This document shows positions 2-20,338 of a stretch of DNA of 24,904 nucleotides, one piece after another; the first letter of the stretch is position 1, and the number at the start of each line of letters is the position of its first letter. The notes under the pieces were generated by a model, which ran no database searches, was not told where the DNA came from, and saw only the letters and a list, made by a program, of their open reading frames with translations. The translations under genes were made by a program, and so were the position numbers. The DNA is taken from positions 1 through 24,904 of IMG/VR virus record IMGVR_UViG_3300017971_000733. One strand, 5' to 3'. The stretch comes from a virus.

Positions 2-160
2 TTAATAGTTTCGGGTCTGGTATGTTTTGGCTTTGGGGTAGTCGGTGCTATCTACGAGCTAAAAATCCTTTTAGACCTGTGCTATTCGTTTGGTGGTGTG
101 TTTGGTGCGTTAATCGGATTTCCAATAGTTGCCAAAGGCATACAGAAATTAGCTAAATGA
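2..160 (+). CDS. Small membrane protein, C-terminal part only
   Basis: An open frame enters from the left edge and stops at the TGA at 158-160, giving 52 visible residues. It has two hydrophobic stretches (roughly visible residues 1-17 and 30-45) separated by a short polar piece, and a basic C-terminus ending QKLAK. The stop overlaps the next start as ATGA, so the two genes are translationally coupled. A two-helix protein of this kind beside a peptidase gene could be a holin or a holin-like helper. The family is not recognised and the start lies outside the window. Confidence 0.55.
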   Translation, partial: LIVSGLVCFGFGVVGAIYELKILLDLCYSFGGVFGALIGFPIVAKGIQKLAK

Positions 161-438
161 TTGAGAAGCTAAGTATCTGGCTCGAGTTAAGAAAGCATAC
201 TACACCTATACACTGGATTTATGGAGGACTCTGTGCCTTCGTAATGTTGCCGTTTGGGATACTGGCTGGCTGGGGCATGATGGGAATTTTTGCAGGCATG
301 GAGTATTGGAATGATTACTGTGATGGCACAAAACAAGGCTGTGACGATTGGTGGGAATCATTTGTTGCGTTCTGTATTGGGTTTGGTGTTCTGGGCGTGC
401 TGCATTATCTTGGGATTATCGCTATAGGATGGTGTTAA
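157..438 (+). CDS. Two-helix membrane protein, holin candidate
   Basis: A 93-residue protein with a polar N-terminus (about residues 1-19) and two long hydrophobic segments, about residues 20-47 and 68-92. They are joined by an acidic and Trp-rich linker containing EYWND and DDWWES. It starts in an ATGA overlap with the gene upstream, and its stop directly abuts the start of the C1 peptidase at 439, so the three form one translational unit. Size, topology and position beside a leaderless peptidase fit a holin that releases the enzyme through the membrane. No holin family signature is recognised, so the role is inferred from context. It could equally be a membrane protein of unrelated function. 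Confidence 0.6.
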   Translation: MIEKLSIWLELRKHTTPIHWIYGGLCAFVMLPFGILAGWGMMGIFAGMEYWNDYCDGTKQGCDDWWESFVAFCIGFGVLGVLHYLGIIAIGWC

Positions 439-1311
439 ATGGAACTATTCGGCTGGCATAAGGACAAATTCGATTCAAGAGATTACCTTCACAGACGGAG
501 ATTTATTACCCTACCCGATAAGATTTCCCTTGCCCATCTCTTAACGCCTATACGAGACCAAGGGAATGTAGGTTCATGCGTTGGGCATGGTATAGGAATT
601 AACCTCAACTCAATTAAGAAACGATTGGGTATTTACGAGGAATGGTGTTCACCAACTTATATCTACAATGGTGCGCGGTATCTCGAAGGCACGTTGCCGT
701 TTGACTTGGGTTGTTATCCTAAAGATGCCCTAGACTGGACAGTAGATTATGGGATTCTTTTAGAGCATTTATGGCCTTATGACCAAACGAAGGTTGATAC
801 CTCAGCTCCTTCTTCAGAACGAATCGAGCAAGCCGATAGGTATAAAGACTTTGCCTATTTCCGTTGTGTTGACGGCATAGACGGTATATGTGATGCGATG
901 GCCTCAGGGTTCTTTGTCTCTATCGGGTCTCCCTGGTTTGACGAATGGCGAAGTACGGATAACGAAGGTAAGCTGGCTATTCCCACCAATGATAGTTCCG
1001 AAGCAGGCGGACACGAGACCTGTTTCTACGAATACGACAGGCAAACGGGCTTTTTCAAAGGTGCTAATAGCTGGAGTATTAAATGGGGAAATGAAGGCTC
1101 TTACTTTATGCCTTTCGAGAGCATAGATGAATTTAAGAGAAGAGGTGGGTATGATGCTCACTATATCACGTTCACGGAAGATATTGACGATGACCCTGTT
1201 GACCCTCCATCCCCTTCACCATGCCGTGTGGGTAAGGCACTGGCGAAACTCGCTAATACTCTCCCGATATTGCTCAACAGAAAAGGGAGATTTTATTACA
1301 GGAATCCGTGA
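439..1311 (+). CDS. Papain-like (C1 family) cysteine peptidase, lysis enzyme candidate
   Basis: A 290-residue protein with the C1 peptidase layout. The oxyanion Gln41 and nucleophile Cys47 lie in RDQGNVGSCVGHG, the catalytic His192 in AGGHE, and Asn210 in GANSWSIKWGNEGSYF, which matches the NSW...WG.GY block of papain. The N-terminus (GWHKDKFDSRDY) resembles the start of bacterial C1A enzymes. There is no signal peptide and no propeptide of eukaryotic type. A Pro-rich acidic linker (about 248-262) leads to a basic tail ending GRFYYRNP, possibly a surface-binding tail. It lies between small membrane proteins, so its likely job is degrading a protein layer during lysis. Phage endolysins normally cut peptidoglycan, so a protease here is unusual. 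The family assignment is secure; the lysis role is inference. Confidence 0.85.
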   Translation: MELFGWHKDKFDSRDYLHRRRFITLPDKISLAHLLTPIRDQGNVGSCVGHGIGINLNSIKKRLGIYEEWCSPTYIYNGARYLEGTLPFDLGCYPKDALDWTVDYGILLEHLWPYDQTKVDTSAPSSERIEQADRYKDFAYFRCVDGIDGICDAMASGFFVSIGSPWFDEWRSTDNEGKLAIPTNDSSEAGGHETCFYEYDRQTGFFKGANSWSIKWGNEGSYFMPFESIDEFKRRGGYDAHYITFTEDIDDDPVDPPSPSPCRVGKALAKLANTLPILLNRKGRFYYRNP

Positions 1312-1319
1312 GAACTAGA

Positions 1320-1424
1320 ATGAACACTATGGAATTTGAGGATGATGCCTGGAGCTGGATGGAGGAGAGCACAACATTAGAGGAGCAAGACATATATTTA
1401 GGAGAACAAGATGGGTTATATTGA
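1320..1424 (+). CDS. Possible 34-residue acidic peptide
   Basis: A short frame from ATG 1320 to TGA 1422-1424 encodes 34 residues, strongly acidic with three Trp/Tyr-rich spots (DDAWSWMEE, QDIYLGEQDGLY). It fills the gap between the peptidase and the next gene and overlaps that gene by 14 bases, which suggests coupling. The ribosome site before it is weak. I do not recognise a family. It could be chance, but the tight packing on both sides favours translation. Confidence 0.4.
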   Translation: MNTMEFEDDAWSWMEESTTLEEQDIYLGEQDGLY

Positions 1425-1680
1425 TTTGGAGCCAAAAACTGATAGGGAGATACTGATGGTGATTGCAACGACATGCAATGGCATGAAGGATGATTTGGTT
1501 CGAATCAATGGTACGCTTATAAACCATGAAAGGCGGATAAAGGCTTTGGAGGCTAATCCCCATTGTGAGGTTACAAGATCGGGTTGGAAGGCAGTATTAA
1601 GAGACAAATGGCAAACTTTATCGCTCGTAGTCTCCATAGTAACCTTGATTATTCTGGAATTATGTCATGTGTCCCCATAA
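1411..1680 (+). CDS. XhlA-like protein with one C-terminal membrane helix
   Basis: An 89-residue protein. The N-terminal half is charged and helical (a likely coiled coil, about residues 10-48, with INGTLINHERRIKALE), followed by a basic segment and one hydrophobic segment at about 70-85. This matches the architecture of XhlA/haemolysin-type phage lysis proteins, which carry an amphipathic N-terminus and a C-terminal anchor and work together with a holin. AGGAGAA lies 5 bases before the ATG. It ends 14 bases into the HNH gene. Placement beside the peptidase and another small membrane protein supports a lysis role. The assignment rests on architecture, not on a definite sequence motif. Confidence 0.55.
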   Translation: MGYIDLEPKTDREILMVIATTCNGMKDDLVRINGTLINHERRIKALEANPHCEVTRSGWKAVLRDKWQTLSLVVSIVTLIILELCHVSP

Positions 1681-2050
1681 ACCTATGATACCCTGCAAAA
1701 AACAGGGGTGTTTTGATTTGACAAATGACCCTGGTGGTTATTGTCCCCAGCATAAAAGAGAATTACAAAGGGGGCAGGATAAGGCCAGGGGTTCCTCTAC
1801 TCAAAGGGGATATGATAGAAGATGGAGAAAAGCCCGAACTAGATATCTAAAAGAACATCCCTTGTGTGCGGAGTGCGTGAAGGAAGGGTGGGTTACAGTG
1901 GCCACCGTTGTTGACCACATAATACCGGCTAAAGGGAGCGCTAATCTATTTTGGGATGAAAATAATTGGCAGCCCCTCTGTAAGTTTCACCATGACAGGA
2001 AGACTGCTAGGGAAGATGGAGCCTTTGGTAATGAAGAAAAGATAAGATAG
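1667..2050 (+). CDS. HNH endonuclease of the packaging module
   Basis: A 127-residue HNH nuclease. The N-terminus has a possible zinc knuckle (Cys10, Cys15, Cys26, His29). The central RGYDRRWRKAR stretch is typical of phage HNH proteins next to terminase. The HNH core follows: Cys67/Cys70, Asp83-His84 in VVDHIIP, Asn100 in NNWQPLC, Cys105, and His108-His109 in KFHHDRKT. In HK97-like and many Gram-positive phages such a protein sits directly before the terminase genes and is needed with them for specific DNA cleavage at cos. The start at 1667 overlaps the previous gene by 14 bases. ATG 1685 (MIPCKK) is an alternative that keeps all metal ligands. Confidence 0.9.
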   Translation: MCPHKPMIPCKKQGCFDLTNDPGGYCPQHKRELQRGQDKARGSSTQRGYDRRWRKARTRYLKEHPLCAECVKEGWVTVATVVDHIIPAKGSANLFWDENNWQPLCKFHHDRKTAREDGAFGNEEKIR

Positions 2051-2150
2051 GGAGGGGGATATTAAATCTCTACAACTTTAGGTTCCGTAAACCGAGTGGG
2101 CAGTGAGACGCGAGTTTTCGCATTTGAGACCATAGGGGTTAAAGATAAAA
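2051..2150 (+). other. Gene-free gap before terminase, cos candidate
   Basis: These 100 bases between the HNH and terminase small subunit genes hold no convincing reading frame. They contain two small hairpins: GGTT-CCGTA-AACC at 2081-2093 and GCGA-GTTT-TCGC at 2110-2121. There are also two GAGAC repeats (2105-2109, 2126-2130). In phages with an HNH-TerS-TerL cassette the cohesive end site often lies in or near such a gap. The cut position cannot be read from the sequence alone, and a leader RNA with a structural role is the alternative. Confidence 0.35.
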
Positions 2151-2645
2151 ATGAATAGAACAAAACCAACAAAACTGAAAATATTAGAGGGAAATCCAGG
2201 TAAAAGGCCATTAAATAAACATGAACCACGGCCTGATGTGGAAAAACCGTCATGTCCCTCCTTTCTTTGTTATGAAGCAAGAGTGGAATGGAAACGGATA
2301 GTCCCTAAGCTCATGGCATTAGGCTTGATTAGTCGGATTGATAGAGCCGCTTTAGCTGCATATTGTCAGGCTTATGGGCGCTGGGCGAAGGCTGAAAAGG
2401 CATTAAAAGCTATTGAGGATAAGTTTAAAAACATTAATGCTGGGGGCGGATTGTGTTATCAGACACCTAAAGGCTATTGGATGACGCAACCCCTAGTAAG
2501 CATAGCTAATAAGGCACTAGAGCAGATGCACAAGTTCTTGACGGAATTCGGAATGACACCAGCATCGAGGACAAGGATAAGTATGAAACCATCTAAGAGC
2601 GATGACCCGATGGATAAGTTATTGGGTACTAGCAGAAAGAACTAA
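2151..2645 (+). CDS. Terminase small subunit, P27 family
   Basis: A 164-residue protein of the P27 type. It opens with the typical RTKPTKLKILEGNPGKRPLN block, followed by a PxCPSFL segment and a helical domain (ARVEWKRIVPKL...LISRIDRAALAAYCQAYGRW), and ends with a fold holding FGMTPASRTRI. The small subunit recognises the packaging start on the DNA concatemer and hands it to the large subunit. It follows the cos-candidate gap and ends two bases before the large subunit gene. The ribosome site (AGGGG, 12 bases before the ATG) is weak. Length and motif order are normal for the family. Confidence 0.93.
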   Translation: MNRTKPTKLKILEGNPGKRPLNKHEPRPDVEKPSCPSFLCYEARVEWKRIVPKLMALGLISRIDRAALAAYCQAYGRWAKAEKALKAIEDKFKNINAGGGLCYQTPKGYWMTQPLVSIANKALEQMHKFLTEFGMTPASRTRISMKPSKSDDPMDKLLGTSRKN

Positions 2646-2647
2646 TT

Positions 2648-4237
2648 ATGGTTTGTGCAACGAAGGTCAAAGCAGAGGCCGCCGAAAGGGCGGTTCTTTT
2701 TATTGAGAACCTAAAACACACTAAAGGCGAATGGGCAGGCAAGCCATTCTACTTAATGCCTTGGCAGCGGGATATTGTCGAGACATTGTTCGGCACACTT
2801 AACCCTGACGGAACGAGGCAATACCGGACTTGCTATATTGAACTTCCTCGGAAGAATGGGAAGTCCACTTTAGCGGCAGGGATAGGTCTTTATCTTTTAT
2901 TTGCCGATGATGAACCTGGGGCTCAAATCTATTCAGCAGCCAATGAACGTGGCCAAGCAGCCTTAGTATTCAATGATGCGGCTGCAATGGCAAGGCAGGC
3001 ACCGGCATTAGTTAAGCGGTCAAAGATAATAGATTCGCAAAAGCGGATTGTTTATTATGCCCAGAATTCCTTTTACTCTGCTATATCGGCCGAGGCTTAT
3101 TCCAAGTTTGGGTATGACTCGCATGGCGTGATTTATGACGAACTCCATGCGGCGCCCAATCGGGAATTGTGGGATGTGTTGACGACTTCCTTCGGAGCGC
3201 GGAGACAACCGCTTCTTCTATGTATAACGACTGCGGGCTATGATAGGAATTCAATTTGCTGGGAGCAGCATAATTATGCCTGCAAGGTCAGGGACGGGAT
3301 TATAGACGATCCTACTTTCCTACCGATAATCTATGCAGCTCCCGATGATGCTGATTGGACAGATGAGAATGTCTGGTATGAATGCAACCCAGCACTAGGG
3401 GTTTTCCGGTCACTAGATGAGATGAGGACACTATGTGCGAAAGCCCAGGAAACGCCAGCACTAGAGATGACTTTCAGGAGGTTATATCTAAACCAGTGGA
3501 CATCTTCAGTAGAGCGCTGGATGCCAATGGATAAGTGGGACGAATGCAATAGTCCAGTTGATTTATGGGCATTGAGGGGGAAGCCCTGTTATGCCGGGCT
3601 TGACCTGGCGGCGACAACAGACTTGACGGCCCTCAGTTTAGTATTCCCGGATGGAGACACTTATGACATCATGATGCAGTTCTGGATACCGGGAGACACG
3701 GCAAGAAAGAAAGAAAGAAAGGACAGAGTGCCTTATTCGTTGTGGGCGAAGCAGGGGTTTATCAAGCTCACGCCGGGGAATGTTATTGATTATGGCTATA
3801 TCAAACAGGAATTACTTAGCTTATTGGAGGCGGGATATAATATTCGGGAATTAGCCTTTGACCGATGGGGGGCGACTAAACTAGTTCAGGATTTGATTAA
3901 CAGCGAGAGATTTACCGCTGATTCTGAGAAGGAGCCTGACAAGATTCCAATTATACCCTTCGGACAAGGCTATGCCTCGATGTCTCCGCCGACAAAGGAA
4001 CTTATGACGCTTGTACTGGGCGGGAAGATTAGGCATGGTGGGCATCCCGTACTGAGGTGGAATGCCGATAACATGGTGGTAAGCCAGGACCCGGCGGGGA
4101 ACTTAAAACCTGACAAGGCAAAGGCGACGCAGAAAATAGATGGCATGGTGAGTCTGATTATGGGACTCGATAGAGCGACGAGACATAGCGATGATGAAGG
4201 TTCAATCTATGATGAGCGAGGGATTATAAGCCTATGA
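2648..4237 (+). CDS. Terminase large subunit, HK97-type packaging ATPase and nuclease
   Basis: A 529-residue protein. The ATPase half has an adenine-binding PWQ at 38-40, Walker A in PRKNGKST (67-74) and Walker B with Asp164-Glu165 in VIYDELHAA. A coupling TTAGYD block follows. The C-terminal RNase-H-like nuclease begins at GLDLAATTDLTAL with metal-binding Asp319 and continues past AFDRWGA. The enzyme docks on the portal, cuts concatemeric DNA and pumps it into the prohead. Length is normal for the Terminase_1 group. The stop overlaps the portal start as ATGA. The start MVCATKV at 2648 lacks a strong ribosome site, so coupling to the small subunit gene two bases upstream is likely. Confidence 0.96.
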   Translation: MVCATKVKAEAAERAVLFIENLKHTKGEWAGKPFYLMPWQRDIVETLFGTLNPDGTRQYRTCYIELPRKNGKSTLAAGIGLYLLFADDEPGAQIYSAANERGQAALVFNDAAAMARQAPALVKRSKIIDSQKRIVYYAQNSFYSAISAEAYSKFGYDSHGVIYDELHAAPNRELWDVLTTSFGARRQPLLLCITTAGYDRNSICWEQHNYACKVRDGIIDDPTFLPIIYAAPDDADWTDENVWYECNPALGVFRSLDEMRTLCAKAQETPALEMTFRRLYLNQWTSSVERWMPMDKWDECNSPVDLWALRGKPCYAGLDLAATTDLTALSLVFPDGDTYDIMMQFWIPGDTARKKERKDRVPYSLWAKQGFIKLTPGNVIDYGYIKQELLSLLEAGYNIRELAFDRWGATKLVQDLINSERFTADSEKEPDKIPIIPFGQGYASMSPPTKELMTLVLGGKIRHGGHPVLRWNADNMVVSQDPAGNLKPDKAKATQKIDGMVSLIMGLDRATRHSDDEGSIYDERGIISL

Positions 4238-12047: not shown

Positions 12048-12665
12048 ATGTTAAATGATTTGACAGGCAGAATATTTGGAAGACTTACAGTTACTGAAAT
12101 GGCTCCCAGGACACAGAAAAAGACCTTTTGGGTTTGCCAATGTGATTGTGGGCAAATAGCAATAGTAAGGAGTGATGCATTGCTTGAAGGTAAAACTACC
12201 TCTTGCGGATGTCTAAAAAGGGAGCAGGATAGAATTAATCTTATTAAAGCTCATAAACATAAGATGGCAGGCACTCGTTTGTATCATATATGGCAGGACA
12301 TGAAGAAGCGGTGTTGCAATCCTCATGTTCATCGTTATGAGCGATATGGTGGTAGGGGTATTCAAATTTGCAAAGCTTGGCTTGAAGATTTTAGACCGTT
12401 TATGCAATGGGCATTGGCAAATGGATATACTGATAGCCTGATGATTGATAGAATTGATAACGATGGAGATTATAAACCTGATAATTGCCGATGGATAATA
12501 AATAAAGCCCAATGTAATAACCGAATATCATGTATAATGATTACAGCAAAGGGGAAAACACAAAGCCTTATGGCATGGTGTGAAGAATTGGGTCTAAGTT
12601 ATTCAATGATGAAATCGAGGTATCAAAGAGGACAGCCTTATCTCCATCTACTTGAAGCTAGTTAA
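12048..12665 (+). CDS. HNH-type homing-endonuclease-like moron protein
   Basis: A 205-residue protein in three parts. Residues 1-60 hold a Cys cluster (Cys30, Cys32, Cys34, Cys53, Cys55) that could bind zinc. The nuclease block contains RLYHIWQDMKKRCCNP, YGGRGIQIC, and DRIDNDGDYKPDNCRW (Asp134 to Trp149), typical of phage free-standing HNH proteins. The C-terminus (MAWCEELGLSYSMMKSRYQRG) reads as a helix-turn-helix. It is more AT-rich than its neighbours, has its own promoter and is followed by a strong terminator, so it is a self-contained insert. No Shine-Dalgarno site precedes ATG 12048, and with the promoter this close the mRNA is probably leaderless. It interrupts no gene and lies in no visible intron. 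Confidence 0.85.
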   Translation: MLNDLTGRIFGRLTVTEMAPRTQKKTFWVCQCDCGQIAIVRSDALLEGKTTSCGCLKREQDRINLIKAHKHKMAGTRLYHIWQDMKKRCCNPHVHRYERYGGRGIQICKAWLEDFRPFMQWALANGYTDSLMIDRIDNDGDYKPDNCRWIINKAQCNNRISCIMITAKGKTQSLMAWCEELGLSYSMMKSRYQRGQPYLHLLEAS

Positions 12666-13191: not shown

Positions 13192-13905
13192 ATGACAACA
13201 GAAGCGAAATCAGCATTTGGAACAACCCTAAAGAAAGGGGCGACAGCTATCGCCGAGCTTACAAATATCGGCGGGCCGACATTATCGGCAGACACGATTG
13301 AGGCGACGAGCCACGATTCAGCAGACGGTTATCGTGAGTTCCTCCAAGGACTGAGAGATGGAGGCGAGATAAGCATCGAGGGGAACTTTATCCCTGGTAA
13401 TGCCGGGCAGGCGGCTCTGGTGACCGACATTAATGACGGCTCATTGGATGAGTATACGATAACTTTCCCGGCAGCTATGGCGACCACATGGACATTTGAT
13501 GCTATCGTGACGGCTTTTGAGAGCAGCTCACCGTTTGATGACAAAGCCAGTTTTACTGCTACCCTGAAGGTAAGCGGGAAACCTGTTCTGGGCGTAACTT
13601 ATGCTACCGGACCAACCGATATTGTGGTAACCGGTGATGTATCTGGTGCATTGACAGAAGTTCCCACTTATGCTGCTGGGGTTTATACCTACACTATTGA
13701 TGGCTCTGCGGATAATACTGTCACGGTAACGGTTACTGCTGCTGGTGCTGATGAAATCACGGTGAATGGAAGTGCTGTAGAATCGGGCGTGCCTTCAAGT
13801 GCCATCAGCCTGACGTCGGGCGAGATCACCACGCTGACGATAGTGGTCAAAGAGGACAACAAGGTTTCCAAGACTTACACCATCTATGTAAGCGATGGTC
13901 TGTGA
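13192..13905 (+). CDS. Major tail protein with C-terminal Ig/cadherin-like domain
   Basis: A 237-residue protein behind TAAGGAGGTAAAA. Residues 1 to about 135 are the tail-tube domain: GTTLKKG, LTNIGGPTLSADTIEATSHDS, YREFLQGLRDGGEISIEGNF, then DEYTITFPAAMATTWTFDAIVTAFE and FTATLKVSGKP. This polymerises as hexameric rings into the tail tube. Residues about 140-237 form a second domain with cadherin-like beta-sandwich features (TYTIDGSADNTVTVTVTAAG, LTSGEITTLTIVVKEDNK, TYTIYVSDG), which would project from the tube surface and may help weak adhesion to host or glycans. A hairpin follows the stop. Confidence 0.92.
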   Translation: MTTEAKSAFGTTLKKGATAIAELTNIGGPTLSADTIEATSHDSADGYREFLQGLRDGGEISIEGNFIPGNAGQAALVTDINDGSLDEYTITFPAAMATTWTFDAIVTAFESSSPFDDKASFTATLKVSGKPVLGVTYATGPTDIVVTGDVSGALTEVPTYAAGVYTYTIDGSADNTVTVTVTAAGADEITVNGSAVESGVPSSAISLTSGEITTLTIVVKEDNKVSKTYTIYVSDGL

Positions 13906-14620: not shown

Positions 14621-15112
14621 CTATTTATGACTTGCCATGAAGGCTTCCATTAAGGTTGTTACTTCATTGATATATTGTGTTCCCTCATCCATCTTATTAG
14701 TTGCCTCTTCTAGCAAGGTAGAATCCAAGTTATCAATGCCAGATGTTATCAAATAAGTAGCATCGTTAAATTCACTCATGGCTTGGATATATTTGGAATG
14801 AATGTGAACCATTGAAGCAGGTGGATTCATTTGAATAGCTTCATCATGAGCAAGCCGTATAATGGTTAATTGAGTTGCAACCTTGAGTGTCCATTCATCA
14901 ACTCCTATCTGTGGATTACTCATTAGAATTGATAATTCCTCAAAGGCATTGCCAACGGTGGCGCCATTATCCTGAAAGGCAGAAATGTAATTTTGCTCCT
15001 CGTTTGTAATTGATGGCAATTCTGTTGGCTCGGGACTACAAATGACAACTAAAGCTATTATAAAGATGATTAAGGTACTAACTAATATGATTCCAACCTT
15101 TTTCCTGCTCAT
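14621..15112 (-). CDS. Membrane-anchored moron protein of unknown function
   Basis: I set the start at ATG 15112, behind AGGAGG at 5-base spacing. GTG 15118 would overlap the ribosome site. The 163-residue product has a positive N-terminus (MSRKKVG), one strong hydrophobic helix (about residues 7-25), a Cys directly after it, then a Pro-rich spacer and a helical outer domain. VVIC is a poor lipobox, so a membrane anchor is more likely than a lipoprotein. The domain lacks recognisable motifs. The gene lies on the opposite strand between the tail chaperone and tape measure genes and has its own promoter, so it can be expressed in the lysogen. Superinfection exclusion or change of the host surface are plausible roles, but unproven. 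Confidence 0.75.
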   Translation of the reverse strand: MSRKKVGIILVSTLIIFIIALVVICSPEPTELPSITNEEQNYISAFQDNGATVGNAFEELSILMSNPQIGVDEWTLKVATQLTIIRLAHDEAIQMNPPASMVHIHSKYIQAMSEFNDATYLITSGIDNLDSTLLEEATNKMDEGTQYINEVTTLMEAFMASHK

Positions 15113-15129
15113 TCTCACCTCCTTTAATC

Positions 15130-18221: not shown

Positions 18222-18608
18222 ATGGCAGAGAGAGCGATCCCAACAGCACTTTTATTCCAAAGCGTGAGCAAGCTACTTAAAGGCGATGCTCCGGCTACGC
18301 TGGGCTACCTGAGCCTGTGTGGTGAAAGCATGGCTGGTTTCGACGTGGACACTACTGATTTCACGGACGAGCTCACCAGGGAGGCAGTGTCACCCACACT
18401 CGAAACGACCACCAAGACCGATGATACTGTCGTCTGTGCGAAGACTGCATGGGAGCCGGGTGCAGACACCATCTATGGTGCCGGCGCTTTCACTGGCTTG
18501 TCAGATGCGACACTGCAAGCCTTCCATGAATGGGCTACTTCAATAGCGTTCGAGAGCGGGGACACTGTAGACGAGACCATCAAGATACAGAGCAAGCAGG
18601 GGAGTTAA
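18222..18608 (+). CDS. Tail-region protein of unknown function (128 aa)
   Basis: A 128-residue acidic protein behind AGGAGGTAAACGAAA. It has a short helical start (PTALLFQSVSKLLKGD), a middle rich in Asp, Thr and Glu (FDVDTTDFTDELTREAVSPT) and a C-terminal part with GAGAFTGLSDATLQAFHEW. Its stop overlaps the next start as TAATG, so it is coupled to the large repeat protein and may assemble with it at the tail tip. Base use is richer in G and C, with more C-ending codons, than in the genes before it, which suggests a recombined segment. The family is not recognised. Confidence 0.65.
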   Translation: MAERAIPTALLFQSVSKLLKGDAPATLGYLSLCGESMAGFDVDTTDFTDELTREAVSPTLETTTKTDDTVVCAKTAWEPGADTIYGAGAFTGLSDATLQAFHEWATSIAFESGDTVDETIKIQSKQGS

Positions 18609-20338
18609 TGGCCTATACTGCTAGAACAGAGACCTACTTCTATACAGACGATGGCTCGATGTCGTACCCCTACGCAATCCCAGTTGACAAGCCATCGGGA
18701 ACGGCTGAAGGCGACATCCTGTTCTGCTGTATTGCGTGGTTTTCATCTGGAAAGCCTGACATTGACTATGTCCCTGCTGGCTGGACTCTGATTGCCCATC
18801 ACAGGGGAAACTTTGAAGCACAGTCGCTGTACTACAAGGTAGCTGGTGCTAGTGAACCGTCAGACTACACATGGAGCCTTGATGGGCCTGCTAAAACTCG
18901 TATGGTTTGCTCTTGCTACATAGGTGGAGACTTCGACGCTGAAGACCCGATAGACGTTTACTCCAATACTGAATACAAAGTCTCAAATACGACTGTCAGG
19001 GCGGCGTCAATGTCCGTCTCGGCGACGGATTCCCCTCTAGTGTTTTGGGCGATAGGTTACTACTACGATAGCATAGCTACCTTTACCAAGCCCTCATCGC
19101 CTGGAACATGGATTGAAGACGATGACGTTGGTGATAACGACTCTGATTGGTCTATAGAAGTCTGCTCTCAGATATGGTCTAGTTCAGGCGCGACTGGCGA
19201 CATGGACGCTACTGCCAGTCTTTCAATGACGCTAAAGCATGGATTTGCCGTAGCGTTGAATCCGTCAGCTGGCGGGCAACATTATGAACGCTCAGGCACA
19301 GCCTTACTAGGCTTAGTAGGAGTTAGCAGCAGAGGTTTAGCTTTAACCAGGAGCGGTATATCCTCGTTGGGCTTGCTTCCCACTGGTAGTCGTAGCATTG
19401 CTTTAAGCAGAGGCTATACCACCCTATTGGGGCTGAAAGCAACTGCAAGCAGGACTATTGCTCTTACCCGCTCCAAGACAGCTTTACTCGGCTTGTTGAC
19501 CACAGCTTCAAAGGGTTTATCTTTGAGTCGTGCCAAGACGGCTCTACTCGGACTAACTACCACTGGCTCAAGGACAATCGCCTTGACTCGCTCTAAGGTT
19601 GCATTACTAGGCTTGAAGGCAACGGCTACCAGAACTGTTGCCGTCGTCCGAGTTAAGACAGCACTCCTGGGCTTAAAGGCCACAGGGGTAATGACCACCG
19701 CTGAGCATTACGTAAGGACTGGTATTGCTTATCTTGGGCTCGTGGCTACTGGCACTCGGACAACTTCTATCACCAGGGTTAAAACAGCCTTGTTGGGATT
19801 GAAGGCTACTGGCAGCAGAACAATCGCAATCACACGCAGTGGCACGGCACTGCTAGGGCTGAAAGCCATCGGTCTATATTCCACTGCTAAACACTACATT
19901 AGAACAGGTATAGCTTATCTCGGACTGGTGGCTACGGGGACACGAAGCATGGCAATGGCGAGGAGTAAAACAGCCTTGCTAGGACTCAAGGGTACGGGCA
20001 GCAGGACGATTGCTATTACGCGGAGCGGAGTTGCCTTACTGGGCTTGAAAGTAACAGGATTATTCGATTTACTGGGCAGGCTCATAGCAGCCCGCCGACC
20101 TTATACGATAGAAGTCCGAAATGCTGACGGAGACCTTATAGCCATACTTGAGAATGCACATGATATATCATACTCTCAGGTAATCAACAGCCCACATTCC
20201 TTGAGTTTGAAAATACCCTCCAATGATTCCAAAGCCAGTAATATCCTTCTGGCCAATGAATATTGGCTACGGGACAATCGTACGAACACAGTCATTAAGA
20301 AATTTAAACTGTATCGCAAGGTGGATAGTAGATCATGA
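18608..20338 (+). CDS. Tail-tip protein: beta domain, 13-unit LLGL repeat, hub N-terminus
   Basis: I set the start at ATG 18608, in a TAATG overlap; the frame runs upstream only inside the previous gene. The 576-residue protein has three parts. Residues 1 to about 225 are a beta domain with GDILFCCIAWFSSG, VPAGWTLIAHH and YYKVAGASEPSDYTW, a pattern of phage tail appendage proteins. Residues 228-484 are 13 tandem units of about 20 residues, consensus RSKTALLGLKATGSRTIAIT. Residues about 495-576 (RPYTIEVRNADGDLIAILEN, then NEYWLRDNRT) look like the N-terminal domain of a siphovirus tail hub whose remainder is in the next gene. The two overlap as ATGA. It should sit at the tail tip. Confidence 0.8.
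   Translation: MAYTARTETYFYTDDGSMSYPYAIPVDKPSGTAEGDILFCCIAWFSSGKPDIDYVPAGWTLIAHHRGNFEAQSLYYKVAGASEPSDYTWSLDGPAKTRMVCSCYIGGDFDAEDPIDVYSNTEYKVSNTTVRAASMSVSATDSPLVFWAIGYYYDSIATFTKPSSPGTWIEDDDVGDNDSDWSIEVCSQIWSSSGATGDMDATASLSMTLKHGFAVALNPSAGGQHYERSGTALLGLVGVSSRGLALTRSGISSLGLLPTGSRSIALSRGYTTLLGLKATASRTIALTRSKTALLGLLTTASKGLSLSRAKTALLGLTTTGSRTIALTRSKVALLGLKATATRTVAVVRVKTALLGLKATGVMTTAEHYVRTGIAYLGLVATGTRTTSITRVKTALLGLKATGSRTIAITRSGTALLGLKAIGLYSTAKHYIRTGIAYLGLVATGTRSMAMARSKTALLGLKGTGSRTIAITRSGVALLGLKVTGLFDLLGRLIAARRPYTIEVRNADGDLIAILENAHDISYSQVINSPHSLSLKIPSNDSKASNILLANEYWLRDNRTNTVIKKFKLYRKVDSRS
19289..20059 (+). repeat. 13 tandem 60-66 base coding repeats
   Basis: This stretch encodes 257 residues as ten 20-residue units, two of 22 and a final partial one of 13. 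Each unit holds an (A)LLGL core and an S/T-R-T-I-A-type strand. Units 8-10 (from 19715) and 11-13 (from 19901) form a 186-base higher-order duplication carrying HY(V/I)RTGIAYLGLVATGTR. Synonymous codons differ widely between units, so most copies are old and kept by protein selection. Confidence 0.9.

Follow-up and report, generated by a model that had tools for sequence, protein, structure and literature searches.

Holin-linked or endolysin-fused peptidase domains of family C1 (papain family) are already known from described phages. The cultured Arthrobacter phage Mufasa8 has the gene order holin, metallo-endopeptidase, hypothetical protein, holin and C1, and the second annotated holin (gp25) overlaps the C1 peptidase gene (gp26) by four bases. 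The ‘endolysin’ of Alicyclobacillus phage MMB025 (XXN61434) carries an N-terminal C1 domain fused to two further domains, PG_binding_1 and an Rv2525c-like glycoside hydrolase. A papain-superfamily peptidase, the C39-like N5 domain, is found within the LysA lysis proteins of mycobacteriophages, which are multidomain murein hydrolases (PMC3314691). The pseudomurein endoisopeptidases PeiW and PeiP of methanogen viruses are lysis proteases for hosts without ordinary murein (cited in PMC12596118). Holins have not been identified in the methanogen viruses with PeiW/PeiP, and the review that states this lists S-layer-degrading viral enzymes as unknown and gives tailor-made proteases acting with holins as one hypothesis (PMC4456609).

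We analyzed a 24,904-nucleotide stretch of viral DNA (the window), a linear IMG/VR fragment of an HK97-type phage by Pfam with an integrase at its far end, in which a C1 gene (439-1311, plus strand) lies among small membrane genes. Its product resembles xylellain of Xylella fastidiosa (PDB 3ois), the best match in both sequence and structure, in fold, catalytic tetrad and chain start; however, xylellain is a cellular and not a phage protein, and the two are 24% identical over the structural match. The Mufasa8 gp26 peptidase is encoded in a lysis cassette and has the catalytic residues conserved, but Mufasa8 has an extra metallo-endopeptidase and a second holin, infects Arthrobacter, and its C1 is only 25% identical to ours. 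Neither of the domains fused to C1 in MMB025 is present in the window protein, which, unlike N5, is a stand-alone C1 enzyme. PeiW and PeiP belong to a different family and have a different target.

The 290-aa window protease contains Gln41, Cys47, His192 and Asn210, a Pro-rich linker and a C-terminal GRFYYRNP tail. The Pfam model PF00112 (Peptidase_C1) scored 20.5 bits against a curated cut-off of 20.7, which was exceeded by the homologues from L338, L341, L342 and G019. The protein also matched the ‘peptidase’ family PHROG 16701 (E 1.9e-12) and, by sequence, xylellain (E 1.4e-18). An AlphaFold2 model built from 32 sequences reached a mean pLDDT of 86.5, and its best structural match was again 3ois (E 5e-19, TM 0.75/0.81), with cathepsins and papain next, so that the papain fold expected of family C1 was found. 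The order and spacing of the active site (Gln-Cys-His-Asn) were also those of C1 peptidases, and the four residues were unvarying across the 32-sequence alignment of homologues. The dN/dS ratio of the closest homologue pair (L257 and L338) was 0.08; the window gene differed from these two by 0.23 at non-synonymous positions, with synonymous sites saturated. Judged from these comparisons, the C1 homologues are under purifying selection. A chance open reading frame at 439-1311 was ruled out by the 3ois match and the dN/dS of 0.08. The first-pass annotation, made from the letters alone, had given the coordinates, catalytic residues and neighbours of this gene correctly, and its complete C1 catalytic set was borne out by the alignment. 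It had also reported a missing signal peptide, and we agree, because the N-terminus held no hydrophobic stretch when checked by hydropathy. The GRFYYRNP tail is common to the C1 proteins of the window, L257, L338 and L337 and is therefore probably functional. No known peptidoglycan hydrolase catalytic family was recognized in the protease, whose matches were PF00112 and phrog_16701 only.

The membrane genes around the protease define what we regard as a lysis slot. A small protein with two transmembrane segments, tm1 (2-160, plus strand; 5’ end cut by the contig), is holin-like by topology and weakly matched the tm1 of L338 (34 residues, 35%, E 0.007). Directly 5’ of the protease gene is tm2 (157-438, plus strand), a 93-aa protein with two transmembrane segments that is 76% identical in L257 and 42% identical in L337, directly upstream of C1 in both. 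Downstream, the product of 1411-1680 (plus strand) has an XhlA-like layout, charged in its N-terminal part and with a single transmembrane segment towards the C-terminus, and is 36% identical to a counterpart in L180 at the same position ahead of an HNH gene. These topologies were assigned by hydropathy and agree with the earlier description of the neighbours as holin and XhlA types. Family membership did not follow: searches of the three proteins against holin and XhlA families (Pfam, PHROG) gave zero matches, the Pfam XhlA model (PF10779) did not match the 1411-1680 protein, and its L009 counterpart reached only E 3.1. The right border of the slot is an HNH endonuclease gene of the packaging module (1667-2050, plus strand; PF01844, E 1.1e-5), conserved in relatives, and the genes for the small and large terminase subunits follow (2151-4237, plus strand; PF05119, PF20441, PF03354).

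The closest terminase relatives of the window, 68-84% identical, were all metagenomic virus contigs. The two contig ends of one sister phage, G002 (L007; 40,128 bp), abut at window positions 2093-2102, a probable cos site of 10 bases (CGAGTGGGCA) that are exactly those absent between the G002 ends. G002 would thus be a whole genome opened at the cos site that separates the HNH gene from terS. The window runs across this site and would therefore derive from phage DNA in circular, concatemeric or integrated form, and we infer that about 15 kb of early genes are missing from it. Elsewhere in the window, a tail protein (18530-20338) contains numerous divergent protein repeats (ALLGLKATGSRTIAITRSKT...), which have drifted too far apart at the DNA level for TRF, and it matched no Pfam family. 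Between the genes for the tail chaperone and the tape measure, an antisense gene (14621-15118, minus strand) encodes a protein with an N-terminal hydrophobic segment and a weak DUF7018 match and is possibly a moron. An HNH endonuclease gene among the structural genes (12048-12665; phrog_374, E 1.4e-69) is a candidate homing endonuclease, and the tail tube protein (13192-13905) carries a C-terminal cadherin-like domain.

A single-protein search with the window protease found no close relatives; these were recovered only by profile searches of virus contigs. In an 80-sequence tree, the close C1 clade comprised ten sequences (100/100 support), and five of them formed a subclade around the window: the window itself, L257, L338, L337 (from G019) and L339. 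The C1 proteins of the subclade are 64-74% identical among themselves (96% for L257 and L338). Each of the five has a tm2 or tmX membrane gene as the immediate upstream neighbour of C1, of the tm2 type in the window, L257 and L337, and of the tmX type in L338 and, by a 36% match, in L339. In the four cases open to measurement (window, L257, L337 and L338), 0-1 base separated membrane gene and protease. The window, L257 and L338 also have tm1-like genes, which overlap or precede tm2/tmX. The pair occurred with the terminase type of the window, with another type of terS/terL (L257, L338 and L339), and in G019, where it is placed after the fibre gene; the linkage thus spans at least three unrelated phage backbones. 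C1 genes do not have membrane genes as neighbours by default: a transmembrane segment was present in only 20 of 141 small same-strand open reading frames of these phages, and of 60 distant C1 genes only 3 had a small membrane gene upstream. The association of the protease with small membrane proteins, first noted in the window, is supported by these five genomes and by the holin overlap in the distant Mufasa8, the only case with an annotated holin. C1 proteases recur in the lysis cassettes of some phages, this cultured one among them.

We also looked for another enzyme that could fill the role of an endolysin. None of eight murein-hydrolase families searched was present in the window, which agrees with the first-pass annotation and covers only part of the phage, the sister genome being 40.1 kb. 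Family-by-family absence is weak evidence, since related control phages shared it: 12 of them also lacked Amidase_3, M15_3 and CHAP, and Amidase_2 occurred in only 9 of 37. In the near-complete G019 (44 kb, C1 67% identical), a Pfam scan of open reading frames of at least 75 aa, other than some structural and polymerase genes, frames on the minus strand and one truncated frame, found no murein hydrolase; only Peptidase_C1 among its 16 families looked able to attack an envelope, and a separate Pfam scan of the fibre gene gave no match. The same held for G022 (58 kb, C1 48%): among the 25 families listed, of 27 in total, only Peptidase_C1 looked able to attack an envelope, and none was a peptidoglycan hydrolase. 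Three scans of the apparently complete G002, which has no C1, likewise found no peptidoglycan hydrolase among frames of at least 75 aa other than terL, portal, prohead protease, capsid and a few antisense frames. The lack of a recognized murein hydrolase in these best-sampled relatives fits an enzyme acting without a muralytic endolysin.

A murein hydrolase elsewhere in the phage, one of the objections named with the first reading, was not recognized in G019, G022 or G002, but other C1 phages do have one. In G026 (L269), a GH108 muramidase gene (E 5.6e-21) ends 12 bases before C1 and small membrane proteins come after it, and Mufasa8 has its metallo-endopeptidase. These two cassettes speak for C1 as a papain-fold peptidoglycan endopeptidase, cutting the stem or cross-bridge of ordinary murein as part of a normal holin/endolysin set. 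The fusion to a PG-binding domain in MMB025 is in line with such a role, as are the frequency of papain-like folds among endolysins (CHAP, NlpC/P60; PMC10318531) and the presence of one, N5, in mycobacteriophage LysA (PMC3314691). The fold of the window enzyme is, however, that of a true C1 peptidase with xylellain as its closest structure, and the enzyme has no PG-binding domain. Moreover, peptidases of family C1 are known for acting on ordinary proteins, and both Mufasa8 and G026 have another hydrolase. On this evidence we consider a murein-cutting role unlikely.

The protease is apparently optional in the phage group, because G002, L388, L389 and L392, which have early marker genes in common with the C1 phages, keep tmX-type membrane genes together with a second membrane protein of 70-96 aa and have no C1 in the slot. 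Other occupants were also seen. In L009 (4790-5413) and L006 (1-594), a 207-aa protein whose gene overlaps tmX stands where C1 would be; its motif DCENFA...KHSYD...EPQSDG is like that of Agglutinin_C cysteine proteases. With a weak Pfam match (E 0.09) and a single-sequence model of pLDDT 35, it is a lead only, a candidate Agglutinin_C-like (papain-fold) protein. A cohesin and dockerin protein of L011 (1564-2235) occupies the slot just before HNH. The small membrane proteins of the slot are therefore constant and the soluble partner varies, as the C1-less, 207-aa and cohesin-dockerin variants indicate. The GH108 enzyme in G026, the metallo-endopeptidase in Mufasa8 and the C1-less G002 led us to reject the proposal that C1 replaces the endolysin in every case. 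The earlier statement that this protease takes the place of an endolysin agrees with the lack of a recognized hydrolase in the window, G019, G022 and G002, but is too strong.

A protein without a signal peptide, optional in the group and of a family encoded in many unrelated contexts of large phages, might instead act inside the cell, in host takeover or counter-defence, and merely lie near membrane genes. The tight linkage to tm2/tmX, seen again in each of five genomes, argues against this, as do the tails of some relatives: C1 proteins of L258 and L340 end in Big_2 and InlB-type repeats, respectively. Such repeats are typical of extracellular proteins, which suggests action outside the cell. 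We regard an intracellular role as unlikely. The neighbours of the wider phage C1 family (~30% identity) were mostly unknown or virion and tail genes; of 115 neighbours of distant C1 genes, only two matched the endolysin family phrog_669, nine matched a virion structural family and three a tail fibre. The structural and fibre matches, the collagen or laminin-G fusions of C1 in L305 and L292, and the position of the L258 gene between portal and capsid genes speak for a virion-associated (tail or head) protease acting in entry or maturation, a role that is still less likely for the window protein, whose gene lies outside the structural operon with its S78 prohead protease (Pfam) and is tied to membrane genes within its own subclade. 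The first-pass annotation had held that homologues found always in unrelated contexts would count against a lysis role; the subclade, linked in five of five, shows otherwise, and the distant homologues do vary in context, often a structural one.

Host assignment by tRNA and flanking genes, the route suggested at the outset, failed: a search of the window found no tRNA, and the terminase, searched in cellular genome contigs, had only Bacillota prophages as nearest matches (50-56%). These distant matches place the terminase lineage without naming a host, and the close clade is represented by metagenomes alone. A search with a marker gene common to these phages returned only further metagenomic phages. 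A fibre tip common to the window, G002 and G019 (55-66%) suggests that the three infect similar hosts. The DnaA and DNA polymerase III beta domains encoded by G022 and the LuxR-type regulator of G002 point to a bacterial rather than an archaeal host. A Cys-rich protein of ~145 aa (CRKCKxWKGCPGKEWYHYGEIRWC) was seen in L387-L392, L257, L086 and L009, otherwise unrelated metagenomic phages that possibly share one host group. Dehalococcoidia are candidate hosts that fit these facts; some have no peptidoglycan and an S-layer-like wall (PMC10608941), and one gene of Dehalococcoides, DET1070, carries the annotation of a putative endolysin (PMC5102406).

Taken with the linkage to membrane genes, a role as a lysis-module protease is likely, which retains that part of the first proposal and leaves aside its simple replacement of an endolysin. 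That C1 is specifically an envelope protease released via a holin-like cassette has, in our judgment, about an even chance; the C1-less relatives, the mostly different contexts of the wider family and the lack of a holin family match for tm1 and tm2 count against it. The soluble protease would be made in the cytoplasm within the late lysis module. At the end of infection, tm1 and tm2 would permeabilize the cytoplasmic membrane, acting as a putative pore or holin, and the folded enzyme would leave through the opened membrane, with release timed accordingly. Outside, it would cut envelope proteins, of the S-layer or another wall protein, and progeny would escape once these were cut. In the phage group of the window, C1 would work without a recognizable peptidoglycan hydrolase, and elsewhere a relative would work beside one.

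A lysis-module protease of this kind may help to break open a host that has scarcely any ordinary wall, or none. Only tentatively, and with a small but real chance of being right, we suggest the fuller scenario of a tailed phage that lyses a murein-less bacterium with holin-like proteins and a papain-family protease, the latter digesting a protein surface layer, while related phages of the same hosts use the membrane proteins alone or another enzyme in the slot. How tailed viruses leave cells in which a protein surface layer stands in for murein has yet to be explained. A dedicated S-layer-degrading lysis enzyme has been proposed for wall-less hosts but so far not found; if our reading is true, this protease would be one, and the C1 family, with its constant membrane partners and no recognized murein hydrolase in the best-sampled relatives, offers a concrete, cloneable candidate.
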